DNA from: an uncultured Holophagaceae bacterium
GTDB lineage: Bacteria > Acidobacteriota > Holophagae > Holophagales > Holophagaceae
NCBI GenBank assembly: GCA_903884655.1
Contig: CAISFO010000029.1
Coordinates: 1 to 64,000 of the forward strand
Reading direction: 5' to 3'
DNA: 64,000 nucleotides
Under the pieces are notes generated by a model. That model was not told the DNA's origin. It made no database searches and worked only from the letters and a program-made list of their open reading frames with translations. Shown in pieces: positions 49,209 to 59,197 of this stretch. Each line of letters opens with the position of its first letter. The stretch's first letter is position 1. The position numbers were made by a program, and so were the translations under genes.

Positions 49209-50090
49209 ATGAACACCCGGGAGGTGCCTGACCCCCAGGGCCTCGCTGCCCTGATCGTGGGCGCCTCCCTGCTGGGCTTTGCCGCCATGCTGGTGCGCTG
49301 GGCGGCGCCGGCGGGACCGCTGGCGGTGGGCTTCTACCGCATGCTCTTCGCGCTGCCCCTGGTGGCGTGGCTGGCCCAGGGCAACGCCCGCCCGTCCTCC
49401 GGCCGGGCCCGTCTCTGGGCGGTCATCGCTGGGGCCTGTTTCGTGCTGGATCTCTGGCTGTGGCACGCCGCGCTCCACTTCACCAGCGCGGCCAACGCCA
49501 CGCTCCTGGTCACCCTGGCTCCCATCTGGGTGGCGGTGGTTTCCGTGCTCTGGATGGGCGCCCACCTGCGCCGCCGCTTCTGGGCTGGAGTGCTGCTGGC
49601 CCTGGCGGGGGCACTGGTGCTGGGCCTGGCCAAGGGCGCCCGCTGGGGAACGGGCCTGGGTGAACTCCTGGGCGCCCTGGGCTCCCTCGCCTACGGGGCC
49701 TTCACCCTCGCCCTGGGCCGGGCCCGGAGGGAACTCAGCGCTCCCGAGGCCCTGTTCTGGGTGGTGCTGAGTGGCACCCTCCTGTTTGGCTGCCTGGCGC
49801 TGGTCCAGGGCGAGCCCCTCACCGGGTATCCCGCCAAGGCCTGGTGGGCGCTGCTCGGTCTCGGGGTGGTCGTCCAGGTGGGCGCCTGGTGGCTCATCAC
49901 CTGGGGCCTGGGCCACGTCCCCACGAACCTCGGCGCCATGGGCCTCATGATCCAGCCGGTGGCCACCATCATCCTCGGCTGGCTGCTGCTTTCGGAAGCC
50001 GTCCGTCCGCTCCAGGGTTTCGGCGCGCTCCTGGTGCTGGCGGGCATCGCCACCTGCGCCTTCGCGCCACCCCCGCGGAAGTCCGCCTAG
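49209..50090 (+). CDS. EamA/DMT-family transporter
   Basis: Ten hydrophobic segments, duplicated EamA pattern (SLLGFAAMLVRWAAPAGPLAVGFYRMLFALPLV). Confidence 0.85.
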   Translation: MNTREVPDPQGLAALIVGASLLGFAAMLVRWAAPAGPLAVGFYRMLFALPLVAWLAQGNARPSSGRARLWAVIAGACFVLDLWLWHAALHFTSAANATLLVTLAPIWVAVVSVLWMGAHLRRRFWAGVLLALAGALVLGLAKGARWGTGLGELLGALGSLAYGAFTLALGRARRELSAPEALFWVVLSGTLLFGCLALVQGEPLTGYPAKAWWALLGLGVVVQVGAWWLITWGLGHVPTNLGAMGLMIQPVATIILGWLLLSEAVRPLQGFGALLVLAGIATCAFAPPPRKSA

Positions 50091-50163
50091 AATCGATCCC
50101 CGGGCCCTCCGGCGCACCTGCTGGATGGACAAACCTCCCTTCAGGAAGTAGGGTAGGAAGCTT

Positions 50164-50249
50164 GCCGGAAAGGAGGTTGCGATGAAGACGATGTCCGTGA
50201 TCGCTGAACCTCCGTCGAGCGGCGCCCATCGGGCCTAGGCTCTTCCGGC
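50164..50249 (+). promoter_or_regulatory. Conserved leader element, copy 1 (upstream of porin)
   Basis: GCCGGAAAGGAGG...CCTCCGTCGAG...GGCTCTTCCGGC; nearly the same blocks as copy 3 on the minus strand at 59114-59197. Confidence 0.75.
50182..50238 (+). CDS. Putative leader peptide MKTMSVIAEPPSSGAHRA
   Basis: SD AGGAGG 10 nt upstream of ATG; (E/D)PPS at codons 9-12 as in the other two leaders; 138 nt before porin start. Confidence 0.7.
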   Translation: MKTMSVIAEPPSSGAHRA

Positions 50250-50376
50250 TGAACCTGAGGGTTTGGCAAACGAGCAGGCAGGGCCAGGTGGGTGGTTCCT
50301 GGCATCATCCAATCCGTCTCCGGGGCCGTTACGGTCCCGTCACCGCTTCGCCACACCTACATGTCACGGTGTTCCC

Positions 50377-51705
50377 ATGCGCACCCCTCGGACCCTGTTC
50401 CGCGCCTTGCTGGTCTTCACCCTGGTCGCCACCACGCCCGGCCTCCTCTGGAGCCAGGCCAGCGAACCTGCTCCTGAAGCCTGGAGCCTCCACGGCCAGG
50501 CGACCACGGTCACCCAGGGCCACGGCGCTTTCGGTGCAGCCTACTCGGGGGAGCACAGCTTCGAGCCCCGCAAGGAGATCCGGAATTCCTTCACCTCCAC
50601 GCTGTTCCTGGGGTTCCGCCCCTGGGAAGGGGCCGAGGTGTATGTGGACCCGGAGGTGTCGGGCGGGCAAGGCCTGAGCCATGTGGCCGGTCTCGGCGGT
50701 GCCCCCAATGGCGAGATCTCCCGGGTATCCAGTTCCGAATTGAAGCTGGCCCTCGCCAGGGTGTATCTCAAGCAGGTCTTCAGCCTCGGCGGGGAGATCG
50801 AAGCCGTCGCCGGGGACCAGAACCAGCTCGGCGGGTCCCGTAGCCGTCGGCGAGTGACCGTCACCGTGGGCAAGCTGGCCCTGGGGGACATCTTCGATGC
50901 CAACGCCTACACCCACGATCCCCGGTCCCAGTTCCTGAACCTGGCCCTGGTGGACAGTTCCTCCTGGGACTACCCGGCAGATACCAAGGGCTACAGCTGG
51001 GGTCTGGCGTTGGAGTTGAACTGGGACGATTGGGCCCTGCGCGCCGGCAGTTTCCTGGAGCCCTCGGAAGCCAATGGTCCCTACTTCGACCACCACGTGA
51101 GCCACGCCCACGGGGAGGTGGTCGAGGTGGAGCATGACCACGAGATCGGTGGACGGGTCGGCCATATCCGGCTCCTCGGCTTCGCGAACCGGGCGGACAT
51201 GGGCAGCTACCAGGAGAGCCTACAGGCTGCCCCCGTGGTGCCAGATGTGATGGCCACTCGCCAGCCGGGACGCCTCAAGTACGGGTGGGGTCTGAGCGCG
51301 GACCAGGCCCTGACCGGAGAGCTGGGGGCCTTCCTGCGGGCCGGCTGGAACGACGGTCGCACGGAGACCTGGGCCTTCACGGAGATCGACCGCACCATCG
51401 CCCTGGGCCTCGCCCTCACGGGGAGCGGCTGGTCCAGGCCCCAGGACCGGGTCGGGGTGGCCCTGGCCGCCGATGGACTGTCGCCCGAGCACAGGACCTA
51501 CCTGGCTGCGGGCGGGCTCGGCTTCATGCTCGGTGATGGTCGTCTGAACTACGGCCAGGAGCGCATCCTGGAAGCCTATTACGCCCTGGCGCTGGGCCGG
51601 TTCGTCACGGCCAGTCTCGATGCCCAGCGGATCCAGTACCCCGGCTACAACCGCGACCGAGGGCCTGTCGACATCTTCGCCCTGCGGCTCCACGCCCAGT
51701 TCTGA
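50377..51705 (+). CDS. Outer-membrane porin (carbohydrate-porin/OprB-like) with His/acidic-rich loop
   Basis: Signal peptide ..LLWSQA; beta-barrel pattern; YFDHHVSHAHGEVVEVEHDHEIGGRVGH loop; terminal LRLHAQF. Confidence 0.8.
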   Translation: MRTPRTLFRALLVFTLVATTPGLLWSQASEPAPEAWSLHGQATTVTQGHGAFGAAYSGEHSFEPRKEIRNSFTSTLFLGFRPWEGAEVYVDPEVSGGQGLSHVAGLGGAPNGEISRVSSSELKLALARVYLKQVFSLGGEIEAVAGDQNQLGGSRSRRRVTVTVGKLALGDIFDANAYTHDPRSQFLNLALVDSSSWDYPADTKGYSWGLALELNWDDWALRAGSFLEPSEANGPYFDHHVSHAHGEVVEVEHDHEIGGRVGHIRLLGFANRADMGSYQESLQAAPVVPDVMATRQPGRLKYGWGLSADQALTGELGAFLRAGWNDGRTETWAFTEIDRTIALGLALTGSGWSRPQDRVGVALAADGLSPEHRTYLAAGGLGFMLGDGRLNYGQERILEAYYALALGRFVTASLDAQRIQYPGYNRDRGPVDIFALRLHAQF

Positions 51706-51776
51706 GACTCGATGTGAATTACCATTCCCGCATTGATCCCGCATCCGAGTCCCGGTCATCCTGGGGTCGGACCTTG

Positions 51777-51855
51777 AAGAAGGAGGCAGCGATGGGCAAG
51801 CGCACCGCCCCGAACGACCCTCCGTCGTGGACAGGAACCGGCCGCTGATTTCTTC
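51777..51855 (+). promoter_or_regulatory. Conserved leader element, copy 2 (upstream of Nramp-related transporter)
   Basis: GAAGAAGGAGGCAGCGATGG...GACCCTCCGTCG...TTCTTCC. Confidence 0.7.
51792..51848 (+). CDS. Putative leader peptide MGKRTAPNDPPSWTGTGR
   Basis: AGGAGG SD 10 nt upstream of ATG; DPPS at codons 9-12; ends 62 nt before the transporter GTG. Confidence 0.7.
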   Translation: MGKRTAPNDPPSWTGTGR

Positions 51856-51910
51856 CCAGAGCCCAGGCTCTGTGGCGTCCAACCACTGACTCCTCCAGAC
51901 CGAGGTCCCT

Positions 51911-53512
51911 GTGTACCTGGTGAGTAAATCCATCCACCAGCTCGAGCGCTTCCGGCGCCAGCTGATGATCTTCTTCGCCGTGCTGGGGCCCGGCATCATC
52001 GTCATGATCGCGGACAACGATGCCGGCGGCATTGCCACCTACGCGTTCACCGGTTCCAAGTACGGGTTCAGCCTGCTCTGGATCTTCATCATCCTCGTGC
52101 CCATGGCCTATTACGTTCAGGAAATGACGGTGCGGCTGGGGGCGGTCACCAAGCGGGGCCACGCCGAGGCCATCTTCGAGGGCTTCGGGCCTTTCTGGGG
52201 CTGGTTCTCCCTGGCCGACCTGGCCATCGTGAACTGGCTCACCCTCATCACCGAGTACATCGGCATGATCATCGCCGGGCAGATGTTCGGCATCCCGCCC
52301 ATCTGGACCTTCCTGGGGGTGACGCTGATCCTCTTCCTGGTGGTGCTCACGGGCAAGTACTGGACCTTCGAGAAGCTGACCCTCTTCTTCTGCGCTTTCA
52401 ACCTGGTCTACATTCCGGCGGCCTTCTGGGCCATGAAGGCGCCCACGGCGCCTTCATGGGGGCTGGTGGGCAAGGGTCTCCTGGTGCCGAACCTGGGCGG
52501 AGGAGGTCTCTCGGGAGAGATCATTTTCGTCCTGCTGGCCAACATCGGCACCACCATCGCCCCCTGGATGATCTTCTTCCAGCAGAGCGCCGTGGTGGAC
52601 AAGGGCCTGGATATCCATGACATCAAGTTCGGGAAGATGGAGACCTTCGTGGGGTCGCTGCTGACCTGCATCGTGGCCGTGTTCATCATCATCACCACCG
52701 CTGCCGCGCTCCACCACCACAACCCTCCCATCGTCATGGAGAAAGTGAACGAGGCCGCCGCGGCCCTCACGCCGCTCATCCCCCATGGCGAAACCGCCCG
52801 GAAGCTCTTCGCCATCGGGCTCTTCGACGCGGGTTTCCTGGGGGCGCTGTGCATCTCCCTCTCGTCGAGCTGGGCCGTGGGCGAGGTGTTCGGCTGGGCC
52901 CACAGCCTCAACAAGAGTGTGAAGGACGCGCCCTGGTTCTACGTGGTCTACCTGGGGATGCTGCTGTCCTCGGGCTTCGTCGCCATGATCTCCTCCGACG
53001 CCACGCAGCAGATCATCACCATGTTCGTGCAGGTGGTGGCGGTGACGCTCCTGCCCACGGCCCTGGTGTTCCTCATTCTCATCCTCAACGACGAGCAGTT
53101 CATGGGCAAGCACGTGAACACGCGCTGGGAGAACATCGCCAACTGGTCCATTGTCATCTTCGTCACCTTCATGTCCACCCTCTTCGCGGTCTCGACGCTC
53201 TTTCCGGGCTTCCTTGAGGGTTTGCGGCCTGTCCCCAAACCCTCGGGTGCCGCGACGACGCAAGGCGGGATGCTCCGCCAGGAAGGGCCCGCAGGGCGAT
53301 GTAGTTCATCGTTCAAGGGCACTGACGCCGTGGAGCGCCCGCCTTGCGCCGTCCCTTCGGGCTGGGGCGGCGGGCGGCATCTCGCTGCGTCAGGCTCGGA
53401 TTGCTTAGAACCACTATGCTCACCTCGCCTTCCTTGCGGGACACCGCCCGGCGCTCCCAGCGCGGCGCGCGGGGGTTCGGGGACAGGCCGCTTGTTCCGG
53501 AGGGCCGCATGA
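51911..53512 (+). CDS. Nramp-family divalent cation transporter (NRMT-like; altered TM1/TM6 metal motifs); last ~97 codons derive from an inserted repeat element
   Basis: Nramp fold with ADNDAGGIATYAFTGSKYG in place of DPGN and IGTTIAPWMIFFQQS in place of ATVMPH; homology-like region ends at ~FPGFLEG (53222). Confidence 0.85.
   Translation: MYLVSKSIHQLERFRRQLMIFFAVLGPGIIVMIADNDAGGIATYAFTGSKYGFSLLWIFIILVPMAYYVQEMTVRLGAVTKRGHAEAIFEGFGPFWGWFSLADLAIVNWLTLITEYIGMIIAGQMFGIPPIWTFLGVTLILFLVVLTGKYWTFEKLTLFFCAFNLVYIPAAFWAMKAPTAPSWGLVGKGLLVPNLGGGGLSGEIIFVLLANIGTTIAPWMIFFQQSAVVDKGLDIHDIKFGKMETFVGSLLTCIVAVFIIITTAAALHHHNPPIVMEKVNEAAAALTPLIPHGETARKLFAIGLFDAGFLGALCISLSSSWAVGEVFGWAHSLNKSVKDAPWFYVVYLGMLLSSGFVAMISSDATQQIITMFVQVVAVTLLPTALVFLILILNDEQFMGKHVNTRWENIANWSIVIFVTFMSTLFAVSTLFPGFLEGLRPVPKPSGAATTQGGMLRQEGPAGRCSSSFKGTDAVERPPCAVPSGWGGGRHLAASGSDCLEPLCSPRLPCGTPPGAPSAARGGSGTGRLFRRAA
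53224..53491. repeat. 268-bp element with ~31-bp imperfect terminal inverted repeats (MITE/structured intergenic repeat)
   Basis: Left GCGGCCTGTCCCCAAACCCTCGGGTGCCGCG (53224-53254) versus reverse complement of right end GCGGCCTGTCCCCGAACCCCCGCGCGCCGCG (53461-53491), 27/31; inner inverted repeat 53256-53269 / 53338-53351 (13/14). Confidence 0.85.
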
Positions 53513-54786
53513 ATCAGGTCCACGCTCCCCAGGCCCCTATCCAGAACTCGAACGGCATCTTCTTCTCGAGGGTCTTCCGCAAGCCCGTGCGCATCGCCGG
53601 CCAAGGCCGGAAAGTGGGACCGGCCTCGGACATCGTCTTCGCCCTGGCCGAGCCCTTCCCCCGCGCAGTGGGCATCTTCATCGACCACGGCTGGGGCGTG
53701 CCGACGGAGTTCGTGTCCTGGGACAAGGTCGTGGACCTGTCGGACCAGGGCATCATCGTTCGCGGCCCCGATGCGGGGGACCAGTACCCGGCCTTCCAGG
53801 ACCAGCCGGGCTGGATCCTCGCCGACAAGCACCTGATGGGCCGCACCATCCTGGACATCGATGACCGCAAGACCGAGGTGGTGAACGATGTGCTGCTTCG
53901 CACGGACGACCATGGCTACTACCTGGCGGCGGTGGATGCCTCCTTCAACGGCTTCCTCCGCAAGTGGGGCCTGCTGAAGCTCACCACGCTGATCAGCGAG
54001 GACCTGATTCCCTGGAAGTTCGTCCAGCCGCTCTCTCTGGAGGACGCCATTGCCTCCGACCGGCTGCAGCTCTCCGTCACCAAGGAACAGCTGCATGACC
54101 TGCCCAAGGAGGACCTTGCCGATGCCCTGGAGGAACTGACGGGTCAGGAACAGGAAGCCCTGTTCTCAGCCCTGGAAACCGACAAGGCCGCAGCGACCCT
54201 GACCGAGGCCGAACCCAGAGCCCAGCGCCAGATCATCGCCAGCCTCCGCCAGGAGCGGGCCCAGAACATCCTTGCCCACCTTTCGACGCCTCAGCTGGTG
54301 GATCTGCTCGGCGTGCTGCCCCACGAGGATGCCGAGGAGATGTTGGCCCTGCTGCCGGAGGAGCGGCAGAAAAGGGTGAGGGCCCTGCTGTCCGCGCGCG
54401 AAGCCACGGCCCGCGACTTCATGTCGCCGGAGTACCTCACGGTGCCGCCGGATCTCACGGTGACCCAGGCCCGTGCCACCATTCGCCAGTCGGGGCTCGC
54501 CTACAACGGTATCTCATATCTGTACGTCAAAGGCGCGGACGGGAAACTGCAGGGGGCCGTGGATGCCCGGTTCCTGCTGGTCTCCGCGGACACCGCCCGG
54601 ATGGAGGACATCATGGACTCCCCGGCGGTCGCCGCAGAGGCCGACGACATCCGCGAGGACCTGGAAGCGCTCTTCGGGAAGTACCACTTCCGGATGGTCC
54701 CCGTGGTGGACCCCGAGGACCACATCCTGGGCGTCATCCGCTACAACGACATCATGCGGGGTGATGCCCCCCGACCCAAGGTCTAG
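53509..54786 (+). CDS. MgtE N-domain + CBS-pair protein with N-terminal PRC-barrel-like region
   Basis: EEMLALLPEERQKRVRALLSA MgtE_N repeats; ARDFMSPEYLTVPPDLTVTQA and FGKYHFRMVPVVDPEDHILGVI CBS motifs. Confidence 0.85.
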   Translation: MNQVHAPQAPIQNSNGIFFSRVFRKPVRIAGQGRKVGPASDIVFALAEPFPRAVGIFIDHGWGVPTEFVSWDKVVDLSDQGIIVRGPDAGDQYPAFQDQPGWILADKHLMGRTILDIDDRKTEVVNDVLLRTDDHGYYLAAVDASFNGFLRKWGLLKLTTLISEDLIPWKFVQPLSLEDAIASDRLQLSVTKEQLHDLPKEDLADALEELTGQEQEALFSALETDKAAATLTEAEPRAQRQIIASLRQERAQNILAHLSTPQLVDLLGVLPHEDAEEMLALLPEERQKRVRALLSAREATARDFMSPEYLTVPPDLTVTQARATIRQSGLAYNGISYLYVKGADGKLQGAVDARFLLVSADTARMEDIMDSPAVAAEADDIREDLEALFGKYHFRMVPVVDPEDHILGVIRYNDIMRGDAPRPKV

Positions 54787-54795
54787 GAGACTCGC

Positions 54796-54912
54796 ATGCC
54801 AAGGGTCAAACTCACGCCCAGCACCCGTTTCGCGCTCTACTTCCTGCGTTTCTACCTTGTGTTCCTGATGCTGCTGCTGGTGTTCCGGTTCATCAAGGCC
54901 TTCCATCATTGA
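54796..54912 (+). CDS. 38-aa single-TM membrane peptide (not in supplied ORF track)
   Basis: GGAGA then ATG: MPRVKLTPSTRFALYFLRFYLVFLMLLLVFRFIKAFHH*; fits exactly between MgtE_N/CBS gene and CDF gene. Confidence 0.6.
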   Translation: MPRVKLTPSTRFALYFLRFYLVFLMLLLVFRFIKAFHH

Positions 54913-54916
54913 TGCC

Positions 54917-55831
54917 ATGAACACAGAGATTTCCGCCTCCGACGAAAAATTCCGTGTGGCCATCACTTCGGTGGTGGCCGCCATCGGCCTGACAGCCATG
55001 AAGTTCGTGGTTGGCCTGATGACCGGCAGTCTCGGCATCCTGTCCGAAGCGGCCCACTCGGGCCTGGACCTGGTGGCCGCCCTGGTCACGGTTTTCGCGG
55101 TCCGAGCCTCGGCCTGGCCCCCCGATGCCGACCACCCCTACGGCCATGGCAAGGTGGAGAATCTCTCCGCCCTGTTCGAAACGCTGCTGTTGCTCCTGAC
55201 CTGCCTCTGGATCATCCGAGAGGCGGTGGAGCGGCTCTTCTTCCATCCAGTCCCTGTGAAGGCCAACCTCTGGGGCTTCCTGGTCATCGCCACCTCGATC
55301 ATCGTCGACATCGGCCGGTCCCGGGCCCTCATGAAGGTGGCGAAGAAACACCAGAGCCAGGCCCTCGAAGCGGACGCCCTCCACTTCAGCACGGATGTCT
55401 GGTCCAGTTCCGTGGTGCTGCTGGGCCTGGGTCTGGTGTTCCTGGCGGAAAGGATGGGGCTGCCCTGGCTGGTGAAGGCGGATGCCATCGCCGCCCTCTG
55501 CGTGGCGGGCATCGTGGTCTGGGTGAGCATCCGGCTCGGTCAGAAGACCCTGCGCGACCTCATGGACTCGGTGCCCAAGGATATGGTGGAGCGGGCCCAG
55601 AAAGTGGTGCTGGACATTCCCGGAGTCATGGCTGTGCCAAGGATCCGCATGCGCAAGACCGGAGGCGAGTGGTTTGCGGATGTGGTGATCGAGGTGCCGG
55701 GGGACCTCAGCTTCGAGGAGGCCCATGCGGTGACGGAGGCGGTCGAGGGCCATCTGGCGGAGCTCCTGCCCGGAGGTGACGTGGTCGTCCACGCTGAGCC
55801 CGCGCGGGTCCATCCACCTACTCGGGCGTGA
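54917..55831 (+). CDS. Cation diffusion facilitator (CDF) family transporter
   Basis: SEAAHSGLDLVAALVT, DADHPYGHGKVENLSALFE, EADALHFSTDVWSS, IRMRKTGGEWFADVVIEVPGDLSFEEAH. Confidence 0.92.
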   Translation: MNTEISASDEKFRVAITSVVAAIGLTAMKFVVGLMTGSLGILSEAAHSGLDLVAALVTVFAVRASAWPPDADHPYGHGKVENLSALFETLLLLLTCLWIIREAVERLFFHPVPVKANLWGFLVIATSIIVDIGRSRALMKVAKKHQSQALEADALHFSTDVWSSSVVLLGLGLVFLAERMGLPWLVKADAIAALCVAGIVVWVSIRLGQKTLRDLMDSVPKDMVERAQKVVLDIPGVMAVPRIRMRKTGGEWFADVVIEVPGDLSFEEAHAVTEAVEGHLAELLPGGDVVVHAEPARVHPPTRA

Positions 55832-55882
55832 TCATCTCCCGATCCTCGCGGTAGGCGAAGAGTTCACCGAAGCGGCCCCACG
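55819..55882. repeat. 64-bp direct repeat, copy 1 (residual 3' end of ABC-ATPase gene)
   Basis: TACTCGGGCGTGATCATCTCCCGATCCTCGCGGTAGGCGAAGAGTTCACCGAAGCGGCCCCACG; 61/64 identical to 55981-56044. Confidence 0.93.
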
Positions 55883-55919
55883 GGGCCCCCTCCGCGATCG
55901 AGCGCAGCGAGGAGCGGGA

Positions 55920-55942
55920 GCACGCGACTAAATGTCGCGTGC
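55920..55942. other. Perfect 9-bp hairpin between the two direct-repeat copies
   Basis: GCACGCGAC-TAAAT-GTCGCGTGC. Confidence 0.8.
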
Positions 55943-55979
55943 GATCGGGGGGTAGTCTGGGTGGGGCCTGGGCTGGAAC

Positions 55980-57281
55980 TTATTCAGGCGTGATCATCTC
56001 CCGGTCCTCGCGGTAGGCGAAGAGTTCACCGAAGCGGCCCCACGTGACCAGCGTATCGAAGGTCTGGTCCGGGTTCTCCATGGGCAGGCGCTGCTGCAAC
56101 TCGGAGCGCAGCTCACTTTCCTTCAGCTCGCCGTGGTGCAGCTCCACCAGCTCCATCACCATCTTGAACAGGCGGAGCTCCAGCAGCTGGGCTTTCCAGA
56201 TGTCCTTGCGGTCGTCCATGTTGGCGCGCACGAACTTCTGGCCGAGGGACGTGAGGAGCACCTGCCGCTTGGGGGTGTCCACGAAGTCCAGCATTTCCGC
56301 GCCCTTCACGGAAGCGAGGATCTTCTCGAAGGTGACATGGGTGGCGGCGGCCACCTGGAAGAGGTCCGCGGTGCCACCCTGAGTCTCCAGATACTCCAGC
56401 AGGCCCAGGATGTCTGAGGAAGGCGCCGGGGGCAGGGGCTCCACGAGGTCGGGCAGGAGGCTGGGTTCCGGAGCGCTCACTTCGATGTCGGGCAGTTCCG
56501 TGCTGGTGATGATGTCGTGCAGCTGGTCCACCAGGCGGAGGAACTCGGGACTGCGCATGTCCCGGGGCCGGGGCAGGGGGTTGTCCACGATGGTGCGCAG
56601 GCGGCCGGGGTTGGCGGACAGCACCACGATGCGGTCCGCCATGTAGACGACCTCCTTGATGTCGTGGCTCACCATGAGGATCGAAGATGGATTGCGCTCG
56701 GCGTCGTCCCAGATGTCGAGGATTTCCGCCCGGAGGCCCTCCGCCGTGAGGGCGTCGACATGGCTGAAGGGTTCGTCCATGAAGAGGATCTCGGGATCCA
56801 CGCTGAGGGCCCTGGCCATGCCCACCCGCTGTTTCATGCCGCCGGAGAGCTCGCGGGGGTAGGCCTCCTCGAACCCTTCGAGGCCCACCAGGCTGATGGC
56901 GCGATGGGCCTTGGCCTTGATGGTGGTCTCGTCCAGCCCCTGGGCCTGGAGCACGGTCTTCACGTTGGCTTCCACCGTCATCCAGGGGTAGAGGGCGAAA
57001 TTCTGGAAGACGATGGCCACGCCGGGGTTCAGACCCTCCATCTTCTCGCCGTGGTAGAAGGTCTTGCCCTTGGTGGGCTGGATCAGGCCGGCGAAGATCC
57101 GCAGGATGGTGGACTTCCCACAGCCCGAAGGGCCGATGAGGCAGACCACCTCGTTGGCCCGGATATCGAGGTTGATGTCCTCCAGCACCCGCAGGGGATG
57201 GCCGGTCTCCCTCTGGAAGGATTTCTGGATGCCCTTCAGCTCGCAGATGACGGTGTGATCGGCGTGGATGGCATGTTTCAT
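55980..57281 (-). CDS. ABC transporter ATP-binding protein with C-terminal AAA-associated domain
   Basis: LIGPSGCGKSTILRIFAGL, LSGGMKQRVGMARAL, ILFMDEPFSHVD; long C-terminal extension. Confidence 0.9.
   Translation of the reverse strand: MKHAIHADHTVICELKGIQKSFQRETGHPLRVLEDINLDIRANEVVCLIGPSGCGKSTILRIFAGLIQPTKGKTFYHGEKMEGLNPGVAIVFQNFALYPWMTVEANVKTVLQAQGLDETTIKAKAHRAISLVGLEGFEEAYPRELSGGMKQRVGMARALSVDPEILFMDEPFSHVDALTAEGLRAEILDIWDDAERNPSSILMVSHDIKEVVYMADRIVVLSANPGRLRTIVDNPLPRPRDMRSPEFLRLVDQLHDIITSTELPDIEVSAPEPSLLPDLVEPLPPAPSSDILGLLEYLETQGGTADLFQVAAATHVTFEKILASVKGAEMLDFVDTPKRQVLLTSLGQKFVRANMDDRKDIWKAQLLELRLFKMVMELVELHHGELKESELRSELQQRLPMENPDQTFDTLVTWGRFGELFAYREDREMITPE
55981..56044. repeat. 64-bp direct repeat, copy 2 (3' end of intact ABC-ATPase gene)
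   Basis: 61/64 identical to 55819-55882, 162-bp offset. Confidence 0.93.
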
Positions 57282-57288
57282 GGCGCCC

Positions 57289-59040
57289 TCACTTCGACAG
57301 GGAGTAGTTGGTTTCGGCGATCTTGTAGAGGGGCTTCCAGACCAGGCGGTTGAACAGGACCACCGTGGCCGCCAGCACCAGAGTGGAGGCCGCCAGCAGC
57401 GGGAAGTTCCTGGATTCACCGGCCTGGCTGACGATGGCACCGAGCCCGAAGGTCTGCAGGGTGGGGCCACTGATGTTGTAGTACTCGGACACGATGCTGG
57501 CGTTCCAGGCCCCGCCCGCTGCGGTGAGGCAGCCGGTCACCAGGTAGGGGAAGACGGCGGGCAGATAGAGATTCCGGAAGCGCTGCCAGCGGCTGAACCC
57601 GAAGGCGGTGCCCACCTCCCGCAGATCGCTGGGAATGGCGCTGGCGCCGGCGATGACATTGAACAGGATGTACCATTGGGTGCCCAGCAGCATGAGGACG
57701 ATGCTGCCCCAGCCGAGGCCGATCCTGAGGGAAGCCAGAACGGCGACCACCACCGGGAAGAGCATGGGCGCCGGGAAGGAGGCCGCCACCTGCACGATGG
57801 GTTGGAAGATCCGCGAAAGACGCTGGGAGAGGCCGATGGCGAGGCCCGCTGGCAGCGTCCAGCAGAGGCCGATGAGGATGGAGGCCATGACGCGGGACAG
57901 GGTGAGCCCGGCCGCCTTGAGCAGGGTCCACCAGGTCTGGGACGGGAGCTGATGCAGCAGGTGGAAGACGCCGAGTCCTCCCAGGACCAGGAACCCCGAA
58001 AGGACCACCAGGGCCACCATCGATAGCCAGGGCGCGGCATGGGCCGCCCGGTCGATGCCGGCCTCCGCCAGCACGACCGTGCGGATCGGGCGATGCTGCT
58101 GTGCTTTCCGCCGCCGCAGGGCGCGCCATCGGTCCCACCTCCTGATGAGGCGCGAACCCCGGATCAGGTTGAGGAACCAGCTTTGCGAGTCGGCCTGCTG
58201 GACCGTGTCCTCGATACGGAACCGCTGGGCCCACACCACGATGGGCCGCCAGAGGATCTGATCAAGCAGGACGATCATCAGGATCATCGCCAGCACGGCC
58301 CAGAGCTGGGCGCGAACATCCCCCTTCTCCACAGCCATGCTCATGTAGGAGCCCAGCCCTGGTACCCGGAAGTCCTTGTCTCCCAGCTTGAACGCCTCCA
58401 CCAGCATGAGGAAGAACCAGCCCCCGGCCATGCTCATCATGCTGTTCCAGGCCAGGCCCGTGGTGGCGAAGGGGAGCTCCACCCACTTGAAGCGCTGCCA
58501 CCAGTTGAACCGGTACACGGTACCGGCCTCGTGCAATTCGGCGGGCACGCTCTTCAGCGAGTGGTAGAGGCTGAAGGTCATGTTCCAGGCCTGGCCCGTG
58601 AAGATGGCGATGATGGCCGTCAGTTCGATGCCCACGTTGCTGTGGGGGAAGGCCGCCACCAGCGCGAGCATCAGGGGCACGATGAAGGTCATGACCGGGA
58701 TGCTCTGGAGGATGTCCAGCAGGGGTACCAGCAGCCGTTCAGAACGTGCGTCCTTGGCGGCCCAGTAGGCGTAGACCAGGGTGAAGAAGAACGACAGCAG
58801 GTACGCGGTCAGCCCCCGCATCATCGAGAAGAAGGTGTACTTGGGCAGGGCCCAGGGGGACAGGTCGATCTCCAGCACGGGCCGCTGGATGTCCGTCCAC
58901 TGCCGCCCCAAAAGGATGAGGCCGTACAGCATGCCGAAAGTGGCGGCGACGAGCAGGAGATCCACCCAGCGCCGCCGACGGAGGGGCGCGAACAGGGCGT
59001 TGGCCTGTCCCCACATGGTGTCTAGGAAGTGGTGCATCAT
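57289..59040 (-). CDS. ABC transporter permease, fused double-domain BPD type
   Basis: Two BPD-type permease repeats, EAGTVYRFNWWQRFKWVELPFA and EVGTAFGFSRWQRFRNLYLPAVFP EAA-like loops. Confidence 0.88.
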   Translation of the reverse strand: MMHHFLDTMWGQANALFAPLRRRRWVDLLLVAATFGMLYGLILLGRQWTDIQRPVLEIDLSPWALPKYTFFSMMRGLTAYLLSFFFTLVYAYWAAKDARSERLLVPLLDILQSIPVMTFIVPLMLALVAAFPHSNVGIELTAIIAIFTGQAWNMTFSLYHSLKSVPAELHEAGTVYRFNWWQRFKWVELPFATTGLAWNSMMSMAGGWFFLMLVEAFKLGDKDFRVPGLGSYMSMAVEKGDVRAQLWAVLAMILMIVLLDQILWRPIVVWAQRFRIEDTVQQADSQSWFLNLIRGSRLIRRWDRWRALRRRKAQQHRPIRTVVLAEAGIDRAAHAAPWLSMVALVVLSGFLVLGGLGVFHLLHQLPSQTWWTLLKAAGLTLSRVMASILIGLCWTLPAGLAIGLSQRLSRIFQPIVQVAASFPAPMLFPVVVAVLASLRIGLGWGSIVLMLLGTQWYILFNVIAGASAIPSDLREVGTAFGFSRWQRFRNLYLPAVFPYLVTGCLTAAGGAWNASIVSEYYNISGPTLQTFGLGAIVSQAGESRNFPLLAASTLVLAATVVLFNRLVWKPLYKIAETNYSLSK

Positions 59041-59113
59041 GGCCGGTCCGGAGGAGCGGATGCGACGCGGGTTAGCGGGCCGGCATCCCGTTCAGGGTGC
59101 GGATTCGGGGGAG

Positions 59114-59197
59114 CGGAAGAGCCGACTCAGCGGACGGCGCATCTCGACGGAGGTTCAGAGAGGTCGGATTGTCGTCCCATCGAACCTCCTTTCCGGC
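59114..59197 (-). promoter_or_regulatory. Conserved leader element, copy 3 (upstream of ABC permease)
   Basis: Minus strand GCCGGAAAGGAGGTTCGATGG...GAACCTCCGTCGAG...CGGCTCTTCCG; matches copy 1. Confidence 0.75.
59127..59180 (-). CDS. Putative leader peptide MGRQSDLSEPPSRCAVR
   Basis: AGGAGG SD before ATG; EPPS at codons 9-12; ends 86 nt before the permease start. Confidence 0.7.
   Translation of the reverse strand: MGRQSDLSEPPSRCAVR

Follow-up and report, generated by a model that had tools for sequence, protein, structure and literature searches.

A 64,000-nt stretch of DNA (the window) from an uncultured Holophagaceae bacterium (Acidobacteriota), part of a 3.9-Mb draft genome, carries three short open reading frames (ORFs) in the 5' leaders of an OprB-family porin gene, an Nramp-related transporter gene and an ABC permease gene. 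Each encodes an acidic residue followed by two prolines (E/D-P-P), and the Pro-Pro codons pair with the leader's own Shine-Dalgarno (SD) sequence. These leaders belong to a real family of hairpin leader ORFs; no description of it was found in the open-access literature searched, in keeping with an earlier reading of this DNA (the original prediction) that did not recognise it. Judged from sequence, the leaders are most likely Mg2+ attenuators that work in the manner of MgtL and CorL.

The leaders and their family

The leader elements of the window are as follows, with each peptide given up to its stop codon.

50166..50217, + strand: leader hairpin before the OprB gene; 5' strand GGAGGTT-GCGAT (SD and start region), 3' strand ATCGC-TG-AACCTCC, from pairing counts
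50182..50238, + strand: leader ORF before the OprB gene, MKTMSVIAEPPSSGAHRA, from sequence; orthologues in Geothrix-like and g5 genomes
51776..51827, + strand: weaker leader hairpin before the Nramp gene, SD:CCUCC core only (pairing probability 0.83)
51792..51848, + strand: leader ORF before the Nramp gene, MGKRTAPNDPPSWTGTGR, from sequence; orthologues in g1, g3 and g11
59145..59195, - strand: leader hairpin before the ABC permease gene, the GGAGGTTCG region pairing with CUGAACCUCC (SD:CCUCC pairing probability 1.00)
59127..59180, - strand: leader ORF before the ABC permease gene, MGRQSDLSEPPSRCAVR, from sequence; orthologous permease loci in other genera

The ORFs lie where the original prediction had placed them and encode the peptides it gave, with GAA/GAC-CCT-CCG-TCG at codons 9-12 in all three. 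Pfam matches confirm its porin, Nramp-related transporter and ABC permease 62-138 nt downstream, the distances from leader stop to main gene start being 138 nt, 62 nt and 86 nt, respectively. Its statement that AGGAGG stands equally far from each ATG is nearly, but not strictly, right, the GGAGG-to-ATG spacings being 5, 5 and 4 nt. Allowing one mismatch, the leader pattern matches twice in the window, compared with 0.00 matches expected in shuffled windows; the third site is the one with the 4-nt spacer. The leaders are real and far above chance.

Leaders in related genomes were gathered by DNA pattern searches and protein searches. They were collected by their E/D-P-P motif, whereas a protein search, independent of that motif, located the permease loci. 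The original prediction had suggested a search of related genomes, and in these the motif is conserved before orthologous transporters, in nine genera of a single Holophagaceae-like family of soil bacteria (Geothrix and its relatives). The 69 distinct leaders comprise 51 ahead of the ABC permease, 11 ahead of Nramp genes and seven ahead of OprB genes, and a covariance model added two further OprB leaders in g5, MQRETPIAEPPSPRRA and MSQPGECAPAHAEPPSGGLRDEA, each likewise ending at a stop. In each whole genome the strict pattern matches about 1-3 times, almost always ahead of one of the same three genes, and a backwards control pattern gives almost nothing. In the other genera of the family a leader is present at 15 of 20 assessable permease loci. 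A further and more divergent Nramp-like gene of g5 (L208, G438:C213; 41% identical) also has the leader, MENREQSEPPSCSLLPGS, and lies near a leaderless permease.

The family appears to be confined to this lineage. Outside the family, our covariance model R1 found no member in any of the roughly 270 genomes sampled from the phylum, and R1 and the DNA pattern (about 300 and 400 phylum genomes, respectively) gave convincing members in the window's family only; permease homologues from outside it, more than 60 in all, likewise have no such leader among their upstream ORFs. No plasmid copies were found. Short E/D-P-P ORFs outside the family at L126 and L139 look like chance, and pattern matches in other families (for example L067-L076) fall within or beside unrelated genes. 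Two Azospirillum genomes (L140, L148) have a different conserved short ORF, ending GDLRPPSR, about 250 nt before a homologous permease.

Coding and pairing in the same nucleotides

All 69 leaders stay in frame between the start codon and E/D-P-P. Seven residues separate the initiator from the acidic residue in 64 of them, six in four and eleven in one, with one more long-register leader, found with the covariance model, beyond the 69. The SD spacer, unlike this coding register, varies by single bases (4, 5, 6 or 8 nt). The leaders are 13-23 codons long, and outside the core the peptides diverge, as in those that begin MGRQADLSEPPS, MSNNSTIAEPPS, MCERPAIDEPPS or in MLNMNPVEEPPLCRP and MSSQRVIDEPPSPLS. 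Within the core, variation is mostly at wobble bases: Pro11 is encoded by CCG (54), CCT (9), CCC (4) or CCA (2), and codon 12 is a Ser codon (TCG 59, TCA 2, TCT 1) or the Leu codon TTG (7). The M-x7-(E/D)PPS pattern of the original prediction is thus the usual form, with Leu at position 12 in several leaders and x6 and x11 forms also occurring. The Geothrix-like ABC leaders vary least at the second codon position.

An in-frame stop follows within 11 codons of the core in all 26 representatives, compared with 6/26 and 5/26 for the other two frames. At locus L197 a 1-nt insertion has destroyed the ATG and an in-frame TTG serves as the replacement start. The GA of the acidic codon is invariant despite frequent non-pairing, with G.G in 25/57 and the A mismatched in 16/57. 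Taken together, the frame, the wobble variation, the in-frame stops, the L197 start and the unpaired GA support the view that the leader is a translated ORF under selection for a conserved E/D-P-P core; ribosome pausing at that core is a separate matter, and a putative one. The peptides have acidic and proline residues early, as do leaders of the MgtL/CorL type.

The same nucleotides form a hairpin. The Pro-Pro codons CCU-CC base-pair with the GGAGG of the same leader, and pairing extends to the AUG in many members, implying that hairpin formation hides the leader ribosome-binding site. Partition-function calculations put the SD:CCUCC pairing probability near 1 in most members, the exceptions being chiefly Nramp leaders. 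R1 matches the hairpins before OprB (E 3e-15) and Nramp (E 1.5e-9), both of which are among the sequences included in the model, and the hairpin before the permease (E 5e-15). Among leaders, a U-A pair adjacent to the core is replaced by C-G or U-G. Where ABC and OprB leaders have a 5-nt spacer, the third base before the AUG and the middle base of the pre-Glu codon switch together between G-C and U-A from genus to genus, and the two g10 genomes differ by this switch as well. In a 33-sequence alignment, which supports a stem embedding the leader ORF, 86% of cells pair and 11 show a change on both sides, a result equalled by none of 500 shuffles, and slid versions score worse than the true register. 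The relatedness of the sequences weakens these compensatory counts, and we regard the support for the hairpin as good but not overwhelming.

Codon 10 is CCT in 68 of the 69 leaders and CCC in the other, compared with 23 of the 232 Pro codons (10%) that are CCT in the window genes. Hairpin pairing implies that part of this CCT CC conservation operates at the RNA rather than the peptide level, and the alternation of Ala and Asp at residue 8 is likewise partly due to pairing. The original prediction, which took conservation of (E/D)PPS as a peptide signal, was borne out as regards the E/D-P-P core and its translation; it missed that the Pro-Pro codons double as the hairpin 3' strand. In several genera (L198 and L250 of g7, and the Geothrix-like ABC leaders) the leader stop codon is overlapped by another hairpin, which is GC-rich.

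Target genes, signal and mechanism

The genes and the spacer that follow the leaders in the window are these.

50377..51705, + strand: OprB-family porin (PF04966, E 6e-38)
51911..53512, + strand: Nramp-related transporter of the NRMT class, GTG start (PF01566), its C-terminus lengthened by a repeat insertion
53509..54786, + strand: cytoplasmic protein with MgtE_N and CBS domains (PF03448, PF00571), starting at the ATG at 53509
55980..57278 (putative start), - strand: ABC ATPase with a C-terminal AAA_assoc_C domain (PF00005, PF09821)
57289..59040, - strand: ABC permease of nitrate/bicarbonate type, in two halves (PF00528, BPD_transp_1), with M-box-linked homologues
59041..59126, - strand: C-rich, G-poor spacer from leader stop to permease start, a candidate Rho utilisation (rut) region from its composition

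Which signal would such leaders read? For the Nramp protein the best solved structure is 7qia (EleNRMT), with an E value of 2e-58 compared with 2e-18 for the next. NDAGG and APW replace DPGN and MPH, and ADNDAGG/TIAPWM align with GNDAGG/TIAPWM. By these sequence criteria (closer to EleNRMT than to MntH, NDAGG present, the Met of MPH absent) it is an NRMT-class protein. Its gene adjoins the MgtE_N-CBS gene; an earlier study described NRMT genes that have MgtE-like fragments as neighbours and M-box riboswitches upstream (PMC4072509). An M-box lies directly upstream of six homologues of the ABC permease (L101, L105, L109, L113, L114 and L118), on contigs from two Clostridium, one Pelosinus, one Lucifera and two Ktedonobacteria-like organisms. 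These span several phyla and suggest that the nitrate-type ABC family takes part in Mg2+ homeostasis. No M-box was found in 100 relatives of the window, whereas control genomes respond to the same search. The NRMT class, the MgtE-like partner, the M-box-linked permeases and the M-box-free relatives together make Mg2+ the likeliest signal, and the regulon is probably an Mg2+ regulon. The small metal (Mg2+/Mn2+?) regulon of the original prediction thus stands as short translated leaders before metal-transport genes, its sensing role being putative.

Between the NRMT and MgtE_N-CBS genes lies a 268-nt insertion (53224-53491) with 31-nt terminal inverted repeats (87%), which lengthens the NRMT reading frame to 533 aa. 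It has ten matches in the genome, counting itself, and is a member of a small repeat family.

Spacers like the one after the permease leader have more C than G in 57/57 cases (means 0.43 and 0.28) and may be Rho (rut) regions; among other upstream regions in the window, C exceeds G in 15 of 24. No intrinsic terminator was found at the leaders, nor did a sigma-70 consensus scan find a site there. By eye, promoter-like TTGAC boxes lie shortly upstream, and they suggest that the leader is at or near the transcript 5' end.

This anatomy, a strong SD, a hairpin that hides it, an acidic-Pro-Pro core in the 3' strand, a quick stop and a C-rich spacer, matches the logic of the enteric attenuators. In such a mechanism the ribosome would have to load before the hairpin 3' strand is transcribed. 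With sufficient Mg2+ it would pass E-P-P and complete the leader, which would expose the C-rich spacer to Rho and keep the transport genes off. At low Mg2+ it would pause or drop off at (D/E/A/S)-E-P-P, the RNA would take another fold, and transcription would continue into the NRMT/MgtE_N-CBS, OprB and ABC transporter genes. We infer Mg2+ sensing, stalling or ribosome destabilisation, and Rho termination at these leaders as the parts of this scheme. A translated attenuator, like MgtL and CorL in its working and without sign of shared descent, is the best explanation of the leaders, with about an even chance of being correct. The fuller reading, of a lineage-specific family of Mg2+-sensing leaders in Acidobacteriota that arose independently of MgtL and CorL, takes the place that the M-box has before the same transporters in other phyla and uses CCUCC both as pause codons and as a lock on the SD in three operons of a single regulon, falls a little short of that.

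Several points weigh against this interpretation. E-P-P is a milder stalling motif than P-P-P, and here it stands at codons 9-11, not at the start of the peptide as in MgtL. The alternative fold, a competing pairing of the leader 5' end with the permease start region, is weakly backed, 77 of 5000 permutations being as good. The leader is absent from five of the family's permease loci. Finally, the NRMT of Acidobacterium capsulatum, a member of the same phylum whose NRMT gene also adjoins an MgtE-like fragment, complemented an Mn2+ defect better than an Mg2+ defect (PMC4072509), so that Mn2+ stays a candidate signal.

That last point also favours the strongest alternative, namely that the same translated-attenuator anatomy reads another signal, whether Mn2+, charged tRNA-Pro or m1G37 status, EF-P activity or polyamines. 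The Cation_efflux gene (Pfam) that follows the Nramp and MgtE_N-CBS genes in the same cluster would fit such a reading, as would the CCU and CCC codons at position 10, which need m1G37, the product of the Mg2+-dependent TrmD (PMC6335274). The hairpin also accounts for CCU, however, dependence on TrmD would itself report Mg2+, and the M-box-controlled permease homologues point to Mg2+; we consider another signal unlikely, though a serious contender. A purely RNA-level element, in which the hairpin hides the ribosome-binding site and E-P-P is a by-product of an anti-SD strand in frame, would explain why, in many members, the 3' strand closely resembles the SD-AUG region in reverse complement, and why CCUCC is nearly fixed and accompanied by compensatory exchanges. 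It is made improbable by the excess of in-frame stops, by an acidic codon retained without pairing, by variation that is mostly at wobble positions and by replaced starts that are still in frame. Least probable of all is a constitutive small ORF that shields the mRNA 5' end or supplies ribosomes to the next gene without sensing, since, although the leader SD is strong and that at the permease start weak, such an ORF would need neither a fixed EPP core nor a self-hiding hairpin, the spacers, at 60-160 nt, are long for coupling, and nearly all members precede transporter or porin genes.

If the attenuator interpretation is correct, these leaders would be a compact natural system in which a peptide pause and an RNA switch share the same nucleotides, and the nitrate-type, M-box-linked ABC family would take part in Mg2+ homeostasis. 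The leader-bearing genomes include cultured Geothrix species, making the prediction directly testable.

Comparison with known Mg2+ and Mn2+ leaders

The original prediction had allowed that a known riboswitch might explain the conservation. No Rfam family matches the window at its gathering score, and a search of 50080-52000 at E<=5 gave nothing in the leader regions. Neither the yybP-ykoY Mn2+ riboswitch nor the M-box (ykoK, RF00380) is matched by covariance model. The M-box resembles the new leaders in its targets, since it precedes homologues of this ABC permease and also regulates NRMT operons (PMC4072509), but it is a 169-position aptamer model with no ORF, and RF00380 has no match in the window or the 100 relatives.

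MgtQ, an 8-aa ORF of the mgtC-mgtB region, recalls these leaders in three ways: its SD is AGGAGG, it has acidic residues, and its Pro codon lies within a stem (PMC8092293). It differs in being intergenic and in acting on mgtB translation, with no Pro-Pro and no reported pairing with its own SD. CorL, the corA leader peptide, is closer in arrangement. In the mgtA and corA leaders the ORF lies within a stem, stem A in the case of CorL, and the ribosome is expected to load co-transcriptionally, before the 3' strand is made (PMC11552253). CorL differs in its single proline, its peptide and its target.

The closest parallel is MgtL, encoded by a short ORF in the 5' leader of the Mg2+ transporter gene mgtA, with two alternative leader folds and Rho-dependent termination in Salmonella (PMC11282234, PMC11552253). 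Its early acidic-Pro motif, EPDP, destabilises ribosomes at low Mg2+ and so prevents Rho termination in enteric bacteria (PMC11282234). Descent from MgtL finds no support, there being no Rfam match, peptides that are unalike on inspection and targets unrelated to MgtA. The Holophagaceae peptide is unrelated, its motif lies at codons 9-12, about 115-210 nt separate the leader start from the main start, the targets are ABC, NRMT and porin genes, the hosts are Acidobacteriota, and the Mg2+ response is putative. Were the parallel to hold, acidic-proline leader-peptide sensing of Mg2+ would have evolved more than once, rather than being an enteric peculiarity, and could govern NRMT, ABC and porin genes.

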